From contig JASHZU010000506.1 in NCBI GenBank assembly GCA_030042375.1, positions 1 through 6,130 on the forward strand: DNA of 6,130 bases, in the 5' to 3' direction. Shown one piece after another: positions 421 through 6,130 of this stretch; positions within the stretch are counted from its first letter, which is position 1; the number at the start of each line of letters is the position of its first letter. A program made the translations under genes and the position numbers. Origin of the DNA: Verrucomicrobiia bacterium. Lineage in GTDB: Bacteria > Verrucomicrobiota > Verrucomicrobiae > Limisphaerales > UBA11358. The notes under the pieces were generated by a model that was not told where the DNA came from, ran no database searches, and saw nothing but the letters and a program-made list of their open reading frames with translations.

Positions 421-3400
421 TTGAACGATCAAAGTCAAAACTCAAAAATTGCCGGCATTGTGGTTGCGCTGTTAACCATGCTGCTGGGGTATGGTTTTAT
501 CCGCGAGAACCTTCAAAGTCCACGCCCTTATTCACTTCTGGCGCCCTCCCAAATGTTGGATACGGAAGATAATCACAGGGTTGAATCCAGACTCTGGCAG
601 GATCCATTTGAGCCTTTTGAATCATCCACAAATCAAACGGATGTAGCGGGAAAAGCCCTGTCCCGAGCTTTGTTGGACAACTGGACCAATGATATTTATC
701 AGTTATTATGGAATGACATCACAAACCGTGCCGCGAACAATCGGATTGCCATCCTGGGGGTAATGTTGCCAGGAGGGTCCTACGGTGAAGACAAGGAAGT
801 GCGTTTACGTCTGCGCTACGCAGTAGAACTGGCCTTGTTGACGAAAGATGTCGGGCCGGAGGATAGCACTCATATCTATACCAACTCGGTCTGGCTCAAC
901 CGGATTGACTTTTTCCACACCAACGTGATTTCGGGCACCAACGTGGTCATTCGTTATGGAATCGACCCGGAATCCCGTCTCAGCCAGTACTCCTATGAAT
1001 GGTTTAAAACTACAAATGATCCGGCTTATGGACCAAGAACCAATAATTTTCAGGCATGCGTCCTATGGCTCAACGAAGATGATTTTGCAGACGATCCAGC
1101 ATCGCGATTGGGGTCATTATTGACCAACATACCTGCGCTTACCACAGGGACGAATGTGTCCTTTTATCTCATTGGCCCGCGCGCTTCCGACACTCTGCAA
1201 GCTCTGGCTTACACGGACAAAACTAAATTATCACACGCTCTTTACACCAGCCTGACAAATGCGGCGGATCTCCATCATTTCTACATCCTTTCGCCGGAAG
1301 CCACTGCTTCGGTACTTCCTGCCAACGCCAACGACGAGGAGGACAAAGGCGTGAGCCTGCGATTGGGCACGCTATTTAGTACCAATGTTTTTTACAATTG
1401 GATTGCCACCGATGAGCGAATCGCGAATTTGATTTCGCGGGAATTGGTTAACCGTCTGGATTCACCCACCGTCAATTCCAATAATGTTGTGGTTCTGTTG
1501 AGCGAGCAGGACACTTACTACGGAAGGAAGCTTGCGGACGAATGGACGTGGGCATTAGTCACGAATGGCGTTTGTGCAGATGCCAAGCATGTCTGGCAAT
1601 TTTCTTATTTGCGCGGGCTGGACGGCTCCAAGCCACAAGCACAGACCCCGGACCAGCCGCCAGCGCTGCCGAACACCCCAGAGGCAGCTTTGCAGACAGC
1701 AATGCAGCAGCAACAGGGTGAACGTGCAGATGGGGATGCCCAATTAGACTATATCATTCGACTGGGAGAATTTTTAAAAGAAAGAGACGATGAACTGAAA
1801 AGCCAGGGCGGAGGGAGGATCATCGCTGTCGGCCTTACAGGCAGCGATGCCTATGACAAGTTAATCCTGTTAGAGCAATTGCGCCGCAAATTTCCCGAAG
1901 CCGTCTTCTTCACGTCTGACCTTGATGCACCTCTCTGGACAGCCCAGGAGCAAAGATATACCCGCAATCTTCTCATTGGCTCCGCCTATTCGGTCAATCC
2001 GATGATAACGCAAACGAGCACGCAGTCAACCTCTGACCAGTTCACATCGTTTCGTGATGTTTACCAGACGGCAGTGTTCCGGGCGTGTTTGGCCGTAGTC
2101 AAATATGAAAAAACCGGCAACGCGGGTTTTCTCAACGACCATGACTTGCAGGGAGGGTTGTATAAAATCGGACGGCATGGCCCAGTCCCGCTTTCTATAA
2201 TAAGCGGTGCGGGGGAGCCGCCGGAACCGGATCCTTTTCTGGCGCGTTGGTTGCCGTTGGTCTTGATGCTGGCAGCTTTTGCAGTAATGCTGGTATATTT
2301 TACCGCCGGGTGCTCGGGGGGAATTGAGCGGCCCGAGGAAATTAATCAAGACCATCCGTCTTCATCGAAAATTCGCAAAGCGGAAGAGAATGAGCGCTTG
2401 CGACAAATATCCTACGGCAAGTTGCTGGCAATATTTATTTGCATCATGTTAGCCGGCCTAGTGGGATTGGGATTCCAGTACTGGACTTGGACAATAGCCA
2501 TGAGCGCCGGGGAAGAACCATGGGGCTTTATGGAGGGAGCCAGCATTTGGCCTTCGGAATATGTGAGGTTGCTCGTTGTCTATTTGGTCTTTGTTTTCTT
2601 CTATGTTGCTCATCGGCGGCGGCAACGCCACCGCAGGAAACTTTGGAAAAAATATTTCCGAGAAGATGCCAATCCGAACCAGGATGAAGATGAGGATGAA
2701 AATTTGGATGAATCATGGAAGGCTTTCCAGGAAAAATGCATGGAGCGATGGAAGGATGACTTGGCGCCCAGGAAAAAGCGTGAAATTGCGGAATCGGACG
2801 GCTATCAGCTTTGGAAAAAGTCCGGGAAACCCAGCGGCAAAAATTTGAAAGATTGGATAGCACAGGCTGAAACGGAATTAGAGCGTGAAAGAAAAAGCTC
2901 ATTAATTTTCAGCTGGATGCCGCCTTTCATCGAAGTACATAAGGCCGGAATGCCTCGGGAAGTATGCGTTAACGCTACAGCCCTTTTTAGAGGTTATCTT
3001 AATTTGGGACAATTTAAAAAACGCATAAAGAGAATGTGCTTTTGCGTAGCAATTTATTTCATGCTGGCAGCATCTTTGGTTTTGTGTCTTCACGACGTTC
3101 CAACCCTTTGGCTGATCCGAGGTTCCCAGTCGCATTTGTTTGATAAATTTATGCTTTTAACTGTAGTTTCAGGGACATTGTTCGTCCTCTTTTATGTTTT
3201 CGACTCTGTGCTTCTCACAAAACGGGTGCTTGATTATATCAGCCGCCACGCCACCTGCTGGCCGGAACCAGCACTGAGGCAAAATGCGATTGAATTTGGC
3301 GTCAAGCCAGAACATCTGGATGCCTTGCTGGATGTTGATTTTGCTGCCGTCCAGACTGCAGAGATAGGGCCTCTCATGTTTGGCCCCATTATCCTGCAAT

Positions 3401-3819
3401 TGCTTTTGCTGATTTCCCGCAGCCCATGCTTTGATGATTGGACATGGCCGACCGGTTTGATCCTGATTTTTGTGATAAATTTTCTGGCCGCAGGGATCTG
3501 TTGGTTTGTTGTACGGGCCGCCACCAGTAATGTCCGGAACGACGCCCGCAAACGTATCAATAAGGCGATATCGTCCGTAAAAAATTCCAGTGAAAATTCT
3601 TATTTTGTCGTTCCTGCGGCCGGGCCCCCGGAATCAACCAAAAGAATATCACCTACAGAATATTTGAATAACCTGGGGAATGTGCAAAACGAAATCGAAG
3701 GTGAAAAGCGCGGAGCATTTGCCAATTGGTTTCAAGACCCAACCTATTTGGCGGTTTTTATTCCTTCAGGTGCTACGGGGGTCATTACTTTGGTTGGCAC
3801 TTTTTTACTCAGAAAATAA
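421..3819 (+). CDS. Large polytopic membrane protein with extracytoplasmic binding-protein-like region, function unknown
   Basis: This is a 1132-residue protein with no function I can name. Residues 10-27 form a membrane anchor. Residues 28-608 should lie outside the cytoplasm and show repeated beta-strand/helix units like type I periplasmic binding proteins: RIAILGVMLPGG (108-119), NVVVLLSEQDTYYGRKLADE (355-374), and RIIAVGLTGSDAYDKLILLE (466-485) followed by FPEAVFFTSDLDA. A Gln/Pro/Ala-rich insert occupies about 403-435. Further membrane segments are near 609-628, 666-688, 714-730, 872-892, 908-929, 981-999, 1011-1031 and 1108-1130. The basic run after residue 730 (HRRRQRHRRK) places loop 731-871 in the cytoplasm. 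That loop has an acidic run (DEDEDE, 755-760) and a DUF2934-like motif (about 787-822). The FDDWTWP motif (1004-1010) and the GAFANWF tail resemble an uncharacterised bacterial family as I remember it. TTG is chosen as the start because TGA at 415-417 closes the frame upstream and the next ATG (codon 20) would cut the anchor. There is no Shine-Dalgarno. The ORF is certain; a receptor or sensor role is inference. Confidence 0.93.
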   Translation: MNDQSQNSKIAGIVVALLTMLLGYGFIRENLQSPRPYSLLAPSQMLDTEDNHRVESRLWQDPFEPFESSTNQTDVAGKALSRALLDNWTNDIYQLLWNDITNRAANNRIAILGVMLPGGSYGEDKEVRLRLRYAVELALLTKDVGPEDSTHIYTNSVWLNRIDFFHTNVISGTNVVIRYGIDPESRLSQYSYEWFKTTNDPAYGPRTNNFQACVLWLNEDDFADDPASRLGSLLTNIPALTTGTNVSFYLIGPRASDTLQALAYTDKTKLSHALYTSLTNAADLHHFYILSPEATASVLPANANDEEDKGVSLRLGTLFSTNVFYNWIATDERIANLISRELVNRLDSPTVNSNNVVVLLSEQDTYYGRKLADEWTWALVTNGVCADAKHVWQFSYLRGLDGSKPQAQTPDQPPALPNTPEAALQTAMQQQQGERADGDAQLDYIIRLGEFLKERDDELKSQGGGRIIAVGLTGSDAYDKLILLEQLRRKFPEAVFFTSDLDAPLWTAQEQRYTRNLLIGSAYSVNPMITQTSTQSTSDQFTSFRDVYQTAVFRACLAVVKYEKTGNAGFLNDHDLQGGLYKIGRHGPVPLSIISGAGEPPEPDPFLARWLPLVLMLAAFAVMLVYFTAGCSGGIERPEEINQDHPSSSKIRKAEENERLRQISYGKLLAIFICIMLAGLVGLGFQYWTWTIAMSAGEEPWGFMEGASIWPSEYVRLLVVYLVFVFFYVAHRRRQRHRRKLWKKYFREDANPNQDEDEDENLDESWKAFQEKCMERWKDDLAPRKKREIAESDGYQLWKKSGKPSGKNLKDWIAQAETELERERKSSLIFSWMPPFIEVHKAGMPREVCVNATALFRGYLNLGQFKKRIKRMCFCVAIYFMLAASLVLCLHDVPTLWLIRGSQSHLFDKFMLLTVVSGTLFVLFYVFDSVLLTKRVLDYISRHATCWPEPALRQNAIEFGVKPEHLDALLDVDFAAVQTAEIGPLMFGPIILQLLLLISRSPCFDDWTWPTGLILIFVINFLAAGICWFVVRAATSNVRNDARKRINKAISSVKNSSENSYFVVPAAGPPESTKRISPTEYLNNLGNVQNEIEGEKRGAFANWFQDPTYLAVFIPSGATGVITLVGTFLLRK

Positions 3820-3822
3820 CCT

Positions 3823-3867
3823 TTTTTTCCAAAAAACGTTGACCTTTTGGCGTATTTGGCCTATAAA
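3823..3867 (+). promoter_or_regulatory. Strong sigma-70-type promoter in front of the structured RNA
   Basis: TTGACC (3839-3844) and TATAAA (3862-3867) each differ from consensus at one position and are separated by exactly 17 bp. Upstream of the -35 lie T7 (3823-3829) and A6 (3831-3836) tracts, resembling an UP element. Transcription should start near 3874-3875. It sits right after the stop codon of the membrane-protein gene, on the same strand as smc, and is the best promoter in the window. It may drive a small RNA, the smc leader, or both. Confidence 0.6.
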
Positions 3868-3873
3868 AAGGGT

Positions 3874-3979
3874 GATTTGGTGAATAAAAGTAAGTGAGTT
3901 GACGGCACAACCCAAATCAGGGTTCCTCACCATTAGTTGTGCCCTCAGCGGCAGAAACCGCATTAGGTTGTGGTTTTTT
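3874..3979 (+). ncRNA. Candidate structured RNA with H-type pseudoknot (sRNA or smc leader)
   Basis: The predicted transcript is about 105 nt, from the promoter above to the T-run. Two perfect 8-bp pairings interlock. TGATTTGG (3873-3880, overlapping the predicted start) pairs with CCAAATCA (3912-3919), and GGCACAAC (3904-3911) pairs with GTTGTGCC (3936-3943). The 5' strand of the second stem lies within the loop of the first and its 3' strand lies outside, which is the topology of an H-type pseudoknot. The inner junction has zero bases, so the stems could stack coaxially. The connecting loops are 23 nt and 16 nt. A terminator-like hairpin follows. I do not recognise it as a known riboswitch or ribozyme class. 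Competing pairings (AACCC 3909-3913 with GGGTT 3920-3924; CACAACC 3906-3912 with GGTTGTG 3966-3972) suggest a switch. No expression or covariation evidence is available. Confidence 0.45.
3955..3979 (+). terminator. Probable intrinsic terminator before smc
   Basis: AAACCGC (3955-3961) pairs with GTGGTTT (3970-3976) through seven pairs, one of them G-U, around an 8-nt loop. The run TTTTTT covers 3974-3979, so the T-tract partly belongs to the stem. A shorter competing stem, GCGG (3948-3951) with CCGC (3958-3961), shares bases with it. It would end the small transcript and also any read-through from the membrane-protein gene, which has no other terminator after its stop. The stem is of modest strength. 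Confidence 0.5.
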
Positions 3980-4038
3980 GCTTTACACGTACCGGCGATT
4001 GTGGTTGCCTAGTGGCAAGCAAATTGCAGTTAAACGAC
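3980..4038 (+). promoter_or_regulatory. Immediate upstream region of smc
   Basis: Between the T-run and the smc ATG I find no Shine-Dalgarno-like sequence (the last bases are gttaaacgac). There is no convincing promoter either: TTTACA at 3982-3987 has no good -10 partner. A small hairpin is possible, TTGCC (4005-4009) with GGCAA (4014-4018) around TAGT. If smc has no promoter here, its transcription must pass through the terminator at 3955-3979, which would make that element regulatory. Confidence 0.3.
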
Positions 4039-6130
4039 ATGTATCTCAAAAATTTAACGGTTTTTGGCTTTAAATCCTTCGCGGACAAGACCGCGCTTAA
4101 CTTTCAACCCGGCGTTACCGCCATCGTAGGCCCCAATGGCTGTGGCAAATCGAACGTCTCGGACTCGGTGCGCTGGGTACTGGGCGAGCAATCGGCCAAG
4201 GCGCTGCGTGGCGGCGAAATGGCGGATGTGATTTTCAACGGCACGGACGGGCGCAAACCGATGGGCATGGCGGAAGTCTCGCTCACGCTCGGCGGCGTGG
4301 CGGAGGAAAACCTGAAGGCGGCGGGCGTGGAGATGGCGTATGATGAAGTGACGCTGACACGCAGGATTTTCCGCGACGGGGCGAGCGAGTATTTCCTGAA
4401 CAAGGTTCCCTGCCGGCTGAAGGACATCCAGCAGTTGTTCATGGGCACGGGGGTGGGCCGGACAAGCTACAGCATCCTGGCGCAGGGGCACATTACGCAG
4501 ATCCTCTCGAGCAAGCCGGACGATCGCCGGGTCATTTTCGAGGAGGCCGCGGGCATCACGAAGTTCAAATCGCAGAAGAAAGAATCGCTGCGCAAATTGG
4601 AATACACGGAACAAAATCTTTTGCGCGTGGCGGATTTGATTCGCGAAGTGAAACGGCAGATCGGGTCGCTGCAACGCCAAGCGGGCAAGGCACGGCGGTA
4701 CAAACAAATTTCGATGGAGCTGCAGCACCTGGAAACGCAATTGGCGCGGCACCAGTTCGACGTATTGCTGGCGGAAATTGACGAACGCAATTCGGCCGCG
4801 GCGAAGTTGCGCGATGAAATTGAGACCGGCTCGGCAGAGGTTCTACGAAGCGAGGACGAAATCAAGCGGTTGCGCGAGCGGTTGATGGAATTGGAGCATG
4901 AAGTCTCGGCGCAGCAGCAGCGCGGGCTGGAATTGAAGGGCGAGATGGAACGGCACGAGAGCCGGATCCAGTTTAACGAAGAGCGTTTGCGCGAGCTGGA
5001 ATCGCAAAATTCGCGCGCGCTGGCGGACATCGCACAGGCGGAAGAACGCTGCCATGCGGCGAATGAAGAACTCACCAACGTGCAACAGCATTTGGCGAAG
5101 TCTGAGACGGCGCTGGCGGACCATAAGCAGGCGCTGGAGCAGAAACAAGCCGCGCTGGGCCAGGTGGAAAGCGATTTGAAGCAGTTGCAAGAGGATTTGC
5201 GCGCGGCGCAATCGGCGGCGTTCGCGGCGGCGCAGGATTTGTCCCGCGTGCGCAACGAAATTACAGCGCTGGATTTGCAAAAGCAGGGCAACACGGTGCG
5301 GCTGGAAAAATTGTCCGCGGAGAAAGTGCAGCTCGAAGAAGAGCGCGCGCGGCTGGACAGCCGGTTGCAGGAATTTACCGTGAGCGTGGAGGCCGAAAAA
5401 TTAAACGCGCAAGCACAACGCGGTTCGGTGGAGCAGCGGCAGAACCGGCTGCATGAGTTGCAGACGGATTTGCAGGCGTCGTCCACGGAGCAGGACCAGC
5501 TTTTGCAGCAGCAGGCCGAGAAACGGTCGCGCCTGACGGTGATTGAGCAACTCGAACATTCGCGCGAGGGTTTCGACGCCGGCGCAGTCGCGGCGTTGCG
5601 GCAGTCGCGTTCGGTCATTGGCTCACTGGCGGACCGGATTCGCGTGCCGGAACAATTTGTCGTGGCGGTGGAAAACGCGCTGGGCCATCACCTGCAACTG
5701 GTGCTGACGGAGCAGCCGGAATCCGCACAGGAAATTCTCGCGGACCTGAGCGCGAACAAGACGGGCCGCGCGAGCGTCGCGGCACTGGCGATCCAGCAAA
5801 CGCCCGATGAAAAGCAACTGGCGTTTGAAGGAGAAATGTCGCCTGCGGCGAACGGTTCGCCGGAAAAACACCTCGAGCAGGGCCAGATCATCCATGCGTT
5901 GAGCGTGGTGCAGGCGGATGCGTCGGTGGAAAAACTTTTGAAATCGCTCCTGGGCCGGACGTTTATCGCGTCGGATCTATCCACGGCAACAGCGCAAATC
6001 CAAAACGGCCACGCCGGTTGCGATTTTGTGACGTTGAGCGGGGATCTGTTGAGCCGCCACGGAATTTACACCGGCGGTTATTTGAACGGCCACGGCAATC
6101 CCAAAGCGCCGGCATCCATCCTTGGCCGCA
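4039..6130 (+). CDS. smc: Chromosome partition/condensation protein SMC, N-terminal part (runs off window)
   Basis: SMC is the ATPase subunit of the bacterial Smc-ScpAB condensin, which extrudes DNA loops and compacts and separates sister chromosomes. The 697 codons present cover the N-terminal half of a protein usually near 1,150-1,250 residues. The head begins MYLKNLTVFGFKSFADKT. Walker A is GPNGCGKSN at 31-39 with catalytic-site lysine K37. An arginine in the KALRGG motif (R57) sits where the B. subtilis R-loop arginine lies. The Q-loop glutamine is Q149 in YSILAQGHITQI, followed by DDRRVIFEEAAGITKFK (161-177). A long coiled coil runs from about 178 to 505. The hinge spans about 515-690, including VPEQFVVAVENALGHHLQLV and the Gly-rich end GIYTGGYLNG (675-684). 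The final visible residues, SILGR, match the return point into the second coiled coil. Signature and Walker B motifs lie beyond the window. The ATG is supported by alignment with the family N-terminus; there is no Shine-Dalgarno. Neighbouring genes do not inform its role. Confidence 0.97.
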   Translation, partial: MYLKNLTVFGFKSFADKTALNFQPGVTAIVGPNGCGKSNVSDSVRWVLGEQSAKALRGGEMADVIFNGTDGRKPMGMAEVSLTLGGVAEENLKAAGVEMAYDEVTLTRRIFRDGASEYFLNKVPCRLKDIQQLFMGTGVGRTSYSILAQGHITQILSSKPDDRRVIFEEAAGITKFKSQKKESLRKLEYTEQNLLRVADLIREVKRQIGSLQRQAGKARRYKQISMELQHLETQLARHQFDVLLAEIDERNSAAAKLRDEIETGSAEVLRSEDEIKRLRERLMELEHEVSAQQQRGLELKGEMERHESRIQFNEERLRELESQNSRALADIAQAEERCHAANEELTNVQQHLAKSETALADHKQALEQKQAALGQVESDLKQLQEDLRAAQSAAFAAAQDLSRVRNEITALDLQKQGNTVRLEKLSAEKVQLEEERARLDSRLQEFTVSVEAEKLNAQAQRGSVEQRQNRLHELQTDLQASSTEQDQLLQQQAEKRSRLTVIEQLEHSREGFDAGAVAALRQSRSVIGSLADRIRVPEQFVVAVENALGHHLQLVLTEQPESAQEILADLSANKTGRASVAALAIQQTPDEKQLAFEGEMSPAANGSPEKHLEQGQIIHALSVVQADASVEKLLKSLLGRTFIASDLSTATAQIQNGHAGCDFVTLSGDLLSRHGIYTGGYLNGHGNPKAPASILGR

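Follow-up and report, generated by a model that had tools for sequence, protein, structure and literature searches.

Upstream of smc in the stretch of Verrucomicrobiota DNA analysed here (6,130 nucleotides, called the window) two palindromic boxes of the NrdR type lie 31 bp apart, and judged from the sequences the smc gene of these Verrucomicrobiota is very probably a target of NrdR, with a predicted NrdR site in front of it. NrdR is known as a repressor of ribonucleotide reductase (RNR), and the parts of PMC4409342 cited here describe one further direct target, topA. Our literature search, which covered titles and abstract openings and left most subscription journals outside its coverage, returned no paper describing NrdR control of smc. 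NrdR is conserved in the PVC superphylum (PMC4989314); smc is not mentioned in the sections of that paper cited here. A bolder and wider reading, to which we give a probability of about 0.45, is that smc is controlled by NrdR in one large Verrucomicrobiota clade (and in its sister clades probably by DnaA as well), the nucleotide pool setting the condensation capacity, and that in the clade of the window the NrdR site also forms part of a new leader hairpin, with DNA and RNA control written in the same letters. A conserved NrdR site before smc would tie the organisation of the chromosome to dNTP sensing, and the supply for replication to the level of condensin in a way open to testing.

Gene organization and comparison set

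The features of the window, in order of position, are the following:

421-3819, open frame of 1132 aa, searched by Pfam profile comparison
3839..3867, + strand, upstream promoter P_up, TTGACC (3839-3844), 17 nt, TATAAA (3862-3867), proposed from its letters and its conservation in relatives
3873..3880, + strand, TGATTTGG, 5' side of a claimed pseudoknot stem with partner 3912-3919, unsupported as a conserved pairing
3898..3949, + strand, leader hairpin GUUGA-C-GGCACAAC / GUUGUGCC-C-UCAGC, very likely an RNA structure given its covariation (alignment A1)
3927-3942, no strand, NrdR-type box 1, TCACCATTAGTTGTGC, predicted site; with box 2 it outscores all 5883 other positions in the window
3958-3973, no strand, NrdR-type box 2, CCGCATTAGGTTGTGG, 31 bp from box 1, predicted with the matrix; coincides with a presumed terminator hairpin
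3981..4010, + strand, proposed smc-proximal promoter, CTTTAC (-35), about 17 nt, TGGTTGCCT (extended -10-like), from the conservation of CTTTAC/CTTGC
3989..4004, no strand, weak third box, GTACCGGCGATTGTGG, lying 31 bp from box 2 between the -35 and the -10; score 2.3
4039..6130, + strand, 5' part of smc, with SMC_N (1e-31) and SMC_hinge (3.3e-19); the gene extends beyond the window end

The product of the open frame at 421-3819 gave no Pfam family above the cut-off (DUF2934, at E 0.0044, was below it) and by eye it resembles a membrane protein. For the comparison set, the Smc part of the window was searched against genome contigs and the best 80 of 546 confirmed stretches were taken; one locus without the gene start (L054) was left out, and the remaining 79 loci plus the window made up the 80 sequences compared. 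The relatives are labelled mostly Limisphaerales, Verrucomicrobia (often subdivision 3), Verrucomicrobiales and Pedosphaera, with six named only "bacterium" and one Proteobacteria; judged by these matches, the window probably comes from the same group. The ATG start of smc (4039 in the window) was at the same place in all 80 sequences (the window and 79 from the best 80 of 546). Most of the 80 upstream regions contain a common block with a fixed layout, i.e., ..ATTAGTTGTG.. and, 31-32 bp on, ..TATnTTGTGG, followed by a T-rich stretch, CTTTAC or CTTGC, and the ATG. Both marks of this block are right halves of the palindrome CACAA-N4-TTGTG, and the block is independent of the pseudoknot that the initial annotation had drawn in this region (see below).

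NrdR-type boxes

A two-box matrix was trained solely on the upstream regions of RNR genes, starting the fit from an NrdR consensus. Of the 80 smc-set loci, 35 were given to searches for RNR and nrdR, and 30 loci of each were examined. The RNR large subunit was found in 35/35 genomes searched, as was NrdR (TIGR00244, over the family cut-off), and from these relatives we infer that the organism of the window has NrdR as well. Training used 28 of the 30 RNR loci, leaving out L081 (cobalamin riboswitches) and L096 (contig end); it yielded the palindrome CCCCAACTAGTTGGGG, with pairs spaced 31 or 32 bp in 26 of the 28 loci, 33 bp in one and 35 bp in another. In all 30 nrdR loci examined the best pair of the locus was located directly upstream of nrdR, which fits the published observation that NrdR often controls its own gene (PMC9110341).

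With this RNR-trained matrix, the pair upstream of smc ranked first in its locus in 76 of the 80 sequences and among the top three in all of them (window plus 79 from the best 80 of 546). The window pair, 3927-3942 with 3958-3973, scored 21.8 and ranked first. The pair was not at rank 1 in L040, L043, L045 and L072, and the pair in L047 lies out of place and seems spurious. Upstream of smc, the best scores averaged 11.0 at a spacing of 31 bp and 10.5 at 32 bp, and no other spacing between 20 and 44 bp exceeded a mean of 3.5. The boxes of the window type resemble the RNR and nrdR boxes of the same genomes, sharing a common matrix with them.

The spacing agrees with what has been published for NrdR, whose boxes commonly have spacers of 15-16 bp (about three turns between centres), with binding and repression depending on helix phase (PMC12051234); such spacers correspond to 31-32 bp centre to centre, and the centres of the window boxes are 31 bp apart. 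NrdR binding also depends on the G-C pairs 9/18 and 40/49, with a distance of 9 bp inside each box and of 31 bp from one box to the other (PMC9110341), and both window boxes carry G-C pairs 9 bp apart (C4/G13). When no score filter was applied, 74/80 sequences had C4/G13 at a distance of 31 or 32 bp upstream of box 2, whereas other neighbouring offset pairs averaged 5.4 and did not exceed 35. After score filtering C4/G13 was present in 80/80 sequences for box 2 and 66/67 for box 1, figures that are partly built in since the filters favour these letters.

Scores above the 99th percentile of background were reached by box 2 in 80/80 sequences, by box 1 in 67/80 and by the third box in 14/80 (window plus 79 from the best 80 of 546), the value for box 2 being partly built in because it was chosen as the best of 16 offsets. 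Box 1 stayed under that percentile in 13/80 sequences, in some of which the third box replaces it; in some distant sequences (e.g., L049, L052, L055, L064, L066 and L077) the best pair consisted of box 2 and the third box. In the window the third box scored 2.3 against a 99th percentile of -1.9. A third box present everywhere was ruled out by its count of 14/80.

To what extent the boxes spread over the phylum was assessed in 240 genomes. In 162 of these the Smc query found a match at E ≤0.001, the weak matches not being Smc-like in strength. Forty upstream regions were taken stepwise down the strong Smc matches (one locus of this sample, L240, was shortened by a contig end), and eight of them, all within the first 17, had a pair scoring at least 12. 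With 8/40 sampled regions at that score, the boxes are restricted to a clade, and a general feature of Verrucomicrobiota smc is ruled out.

In the one genome scanned at large (G026; 1.2 Mb of about 3.4 Mb, on two contigs) matrix matches were rare, with no more than three pairs scoring at least 15, the one at RNR (31.7), a third site (24.2) and the one at nrdR (17.2). The smc pair of the same genome (L050) scores 20.5. The third site (L163:15677-15755) has three boxes at 31 and 32 bp (24.2 and 11.5) and directly precedes a gene on the minus strand (14992-15660), whose product has what we take to be an ImmA/IrrE-like HExxH motif. Among the RNR loci, L081 has two cobalamin riboswitches (34-222 and 3293-3518) flanking the RNR gene, where simple box scans gave no NrdR pair, and upstream of the RNR promoter L083, L084, L099 and L104 share another conserved string, GAATAnCGTTnGCGTAACTTTTTT.

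Predicted promoters

The letters and coordinates named in the initial annotation were all correct, and its proposal of a near-consensus promoter at 3839-3867 was borne out by the closest relatives, where it is kept: 10-11 of 12 letters match in the window, L001-L005, L007 and L020. In the eight closest sequences TTGACN-16/17-TATAAN was found at a near-constant distance 5' of the hairpin, the -10 ending 69-75 nt upstream of the hairpin 3' arm. A wider set of 40 distinct leaders was composed of the window, 31 sequences from the best 80 of 546 smc loci and eight from loci with the loop motif (see below), after dropping eleven duplicates and omitting L218, whose contig ends at the motif; at least 9/12 letters matched in 21/40 of these leaders, and the shuffle P was ≤0.05 in 14/40. 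The consensus promoter scan did not report 3839-3867, because its rule needs T as the sixth base of the -10, which here is A.

Closer to the gene, CTTTAC or CTTGC was found at most 22 nt downstream of box 2 in 78/80 sequences (window plus 79 from the best 80 of 546), a motif that had also been the anchor in the box scoring. This conservation suggests that 3981..4010 may act as the smc-proximal promoter.

Leader hairpin and interlocking stems

The initial annotation had described two interlocking stems of 8 bp, of which GGCACAAC (3904-3911) with GTTGTGCC (3936-3943) is one and TGATTTGG with CCAAATCA (3912-3919) the other, followed by AACCGCA..TGTGGTT and a T-run to 3979. It had proposed to test both for compensatory changes; among the relatives they were found by covariation in the 3' stem, while the 5' stem had no excess of own over swapped pairing. 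The 3' stem, GGCACAAC:GTTGTGCC, belongs to a conserved hairpin of 14 pairs with compensatory changes in 39 sequences including the window. These were aligned as A1 (39 leaders, 38 distinct; L063, in which no 5' arm was found, was excluded). Covariation was 0.301, compared with 0.187 (sd 0.014) in shuffled alignments and at most 0.172 in slid ones; 0/500 shuffles reached it. Of the cells in the 39 aligned leaders, 78.5% pair, and both sides change in 9/14 pairs, a number reached by 9/500 shuffles. As examples, the pair 9-55 goes from G-C to A-U in five sequences and to C-G in one, and the pair 12-52 from A-U to G-C in two. A swap test on 32 sequences concurs (8.28 own vs 6.80 swapped, sd 0.21), and the per-position swap count gave a modest excess outside the core (at the second outer pair, for instance, 0.62 vs 0.43). 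Compared with this per-position count, the covariation count on the alignment is the stronger test, and kinship among the sequences inflates both covariation and swap tests. Taken from sequence comparison, the hairpin at 3898-3949 is very likely a real RNA structure.

Its loop is nearly invariant and ends with ..CGGTTCCTCACCAATTAG in the relatives (alignment A1), and the loop and the 3' arm share letters with box 1. A 22-letter motif of loop plus arm, searched as an exact string, had a single copy in each of 26 of the 293 genomes of the order, and in 19 of the 20 loci retrieved an Smc start was encoded at most 600 nt downstream; the twentieth ends at a contig edge. Stability, translation or read-through are candidate roles for such a leader. 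The minimum-energy fold of 3870-3985, with pseudoknots disallowed, extended the 3' stem by GUUGA:UCAGC and added the hairpin of the T-run; its z was -1.95, and 7/200 shuffles folded at least as well. We also noted a possible second leader stem between the left half of box 2 and the sequence after CTTTAC, which in the window would join 3956-3962 with 4000-4006; the same complementarity of the box 2 left half is seen in L013, L027, L036, L038 and L061.

The span of the presumed terminator, 3956-3979, is that of box 2 together with the T-rich sequence beside it, and the terminator is the less likely account: its letters are those of an NrdR-type palindrome, and in L003 and L007 the stem is reduced to three pairs, of which two are G-U. 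A short stem is still drawn there when the eight closest sequences are folded to a consensus, with three pairs common to all eight and the T-run kept; the letters common to all eight are those of the box. Box 2 replaces the terminator as the better account of these letters.

Alternative readings

The H-type pseudoknot formed by the two abutting stems is probably not real, and the likelihood that it is both real and functional seems very small. In its favour are the two 8-bp matches lying directly next to each other, whose rarity, asserted at the outset, was upheld: among 20,000 dinucleotide shuffles of 3870-3980, one or more 8-bp stems turned up in 8.6%, an interlocking pair of such stems in 0.045% and an interlocking pair joined by 2 nt or less in 0.01% (0.0001-0.00045 of shuffles for interlocking and abutting pairs), the true significance being lower because the region was picked for its striking look. 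In the window alone, the match TGATTTGG:CCAAATCA also exceeds what shuffling its 5' region gives (P 0.0165), and L020, with the stem TGATTGGC:GCCAATCA, differs from the window by a paired change. Against these points, the 5' stem did not covary over the 40 leaders, where own pairing was 5.10 and swapped pairing 5.06 (sd 0.16); the closest relatives scored from 4.5 to 8, and leaders with quite different letters equalled them (L202 with 8, L025 with 7). As a conserved feature the pseudoknot was rejected, its 5' stem having no within-genome excess. With the terminator letters palindromic and the pseudoknot unsupported, a stand-alone small RNA, also suggested initially, is not the best reading of a region that we take as regulatory and leader DNA of smc. 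Such an RNA of about 105 nt would run from the upstream promoter to the T-run and act in trans via the pyrimidine-rich loop GGUUCCUCACC, the palindromes being incidental. The promoter kept in the closest relatives, the covarying hairpin, the nearly invariant loop and the short stem with T-run of the window, still drawn in the consensus fold of the eight closest, would suit it; the decayed last stem of L003 and L007, the palindrome and the 31-32 bp spacing kept where the hairpin 5' arm is absent by eye (e.g., L011 and L014), and the single loop motif per genome, tied to a downstream Smc start, speak against it, and we hold it to be improbable.

A cis-acting leader (attenuator or riboswitch-like), in which the hairpin and a second pairing decide on read-through to smc, could coexist with the NrdR boxes, and we regard it as a rather unlikely account of the region. 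Besides the covariation of the hairpin, it draws on the pairing of the box 2 left half with downstream sequence (e.g., TGCCCTGTA:TGCAGGGCG in L038), for which own pairing was 4.49 against 4.07 swapped (sd 0.09, highest swap 4.30; 80 sequences including the window). This second pairing is, however, short and patchy, with 14/80 sequences reaching at least 6; relatedness inflates swap tests; and the hairpin seems absent from clades that keep the boxes. In line with the initial annotation, which recognised no known RNA class, no Rfam family reached its gathering score in the window; the segment 3800-4060 gave two matches only, at E 8.1, which is chance level, and the loci L013, L020 and L036 gave no family match, a result that also weighs against the cis-acting leader. 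That another regulator with paired palindromic sites binds upstream of smc, RNR and nrdR is hardly credible, given that the palindrome pairs at 31-32 bp before RNR and nrdR, with the essential G-C pairs, fit the description of NrdR boxes, and that NrdR was present in every genome searched.

Proposed mechanism and relation to known systems

From the boxes, their spacing, their conservation and the hairpin, all seen at the level of sequence, we infer that NrdR binds at the boxes, that this affects smc, and in which direction. NrdR needs dATP plus ATP (or ADP) to bind, and does so as a tetramer on two boxes (PMC9110341). Upstream of smc, a NrdR tetramer would bridge box 1 (3927-3942) and box 2 (3958-3973), which are separated by three helical turns and lie directly in front of the proposed smc-proximal promoter. 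High dATP would keep NrdR bound and smc transcription lowered, binding reducing the output both of the upstream promoter, in whose path the boxes lie, and of the smc-proximal one. When dNTPs are being consumed, smc would be released together with RNR; smc, the ribonucleotide reductase gene and nrdR would all respond to one dNTP signal. In the clade of the window, the transcript from the upstream promoter would begin with the hairpin 3898-3949, which overlaps box 1.

Repression rather than activation of smc is the direction we favour, with some reserve. Boxes 1 and 2 are upstream of the presumed -35, whereas the RNR boxes seem to cover their promoter. This position makes repression less obvious and activation, as at topA, conceivable. 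The likeness to the NrdR box pairs of RNR operons is in the C4/G13 palindromes at 31-32 bp centre to centre and in the NrdR present in 35/35 genomes; the differences are that the target here would be smc, that the boxes are upstream of the presumed -35 and that box 1 overlaps a leader hairpin. In Pseudomonas, NrdR activates topA, a target outside the RNR genes (PMC4409342). The predicted control of smc resembles the P. aeruginosa topA case in that NrdR acts on a gene of chromosome topology and not on an RNR gene (PMC4409342), but topA has a single box and is activated, whereas smc has two, sometimes three, boxes. The promoter-proximal hairpin with a conserved loop recalls the structured leader and small RNA families of Rfam, none of which matched.

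DnaA-box-type motif

The string TTATTCACA, which we take to be a 9-mer of the DnaA-box type, occurred in 29 of the 80 smc upstream regions (160 nt each; window plus 79 from the best 80 of 546), against a background of 4 occurrences in 1.2 Mb of G026. The window does not have it; at the corresponding position its clade carries GGTTCCTCACC. DnaA is among the further regulators of the nrdA promoter (PMC12176259), and E. coli nrdAB, with DnaA among its regulators besides NrdR (PMC12176259), offers a parallel for these 29/80 upstream regions, but it differs from the window, where the 9-mer is missing. In 20 dnaA loci TTATTCACA had 13 occurrences, mostly at one place, and TTATNCACA was found at most 200 nt upstream of nrdR in 5/30 loci and near the RNR start in 7/30. 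Upstream of smc, TTATTCACA is located on or beside the NrdR boxes in L006, L014, L049, L053, L068 and others.
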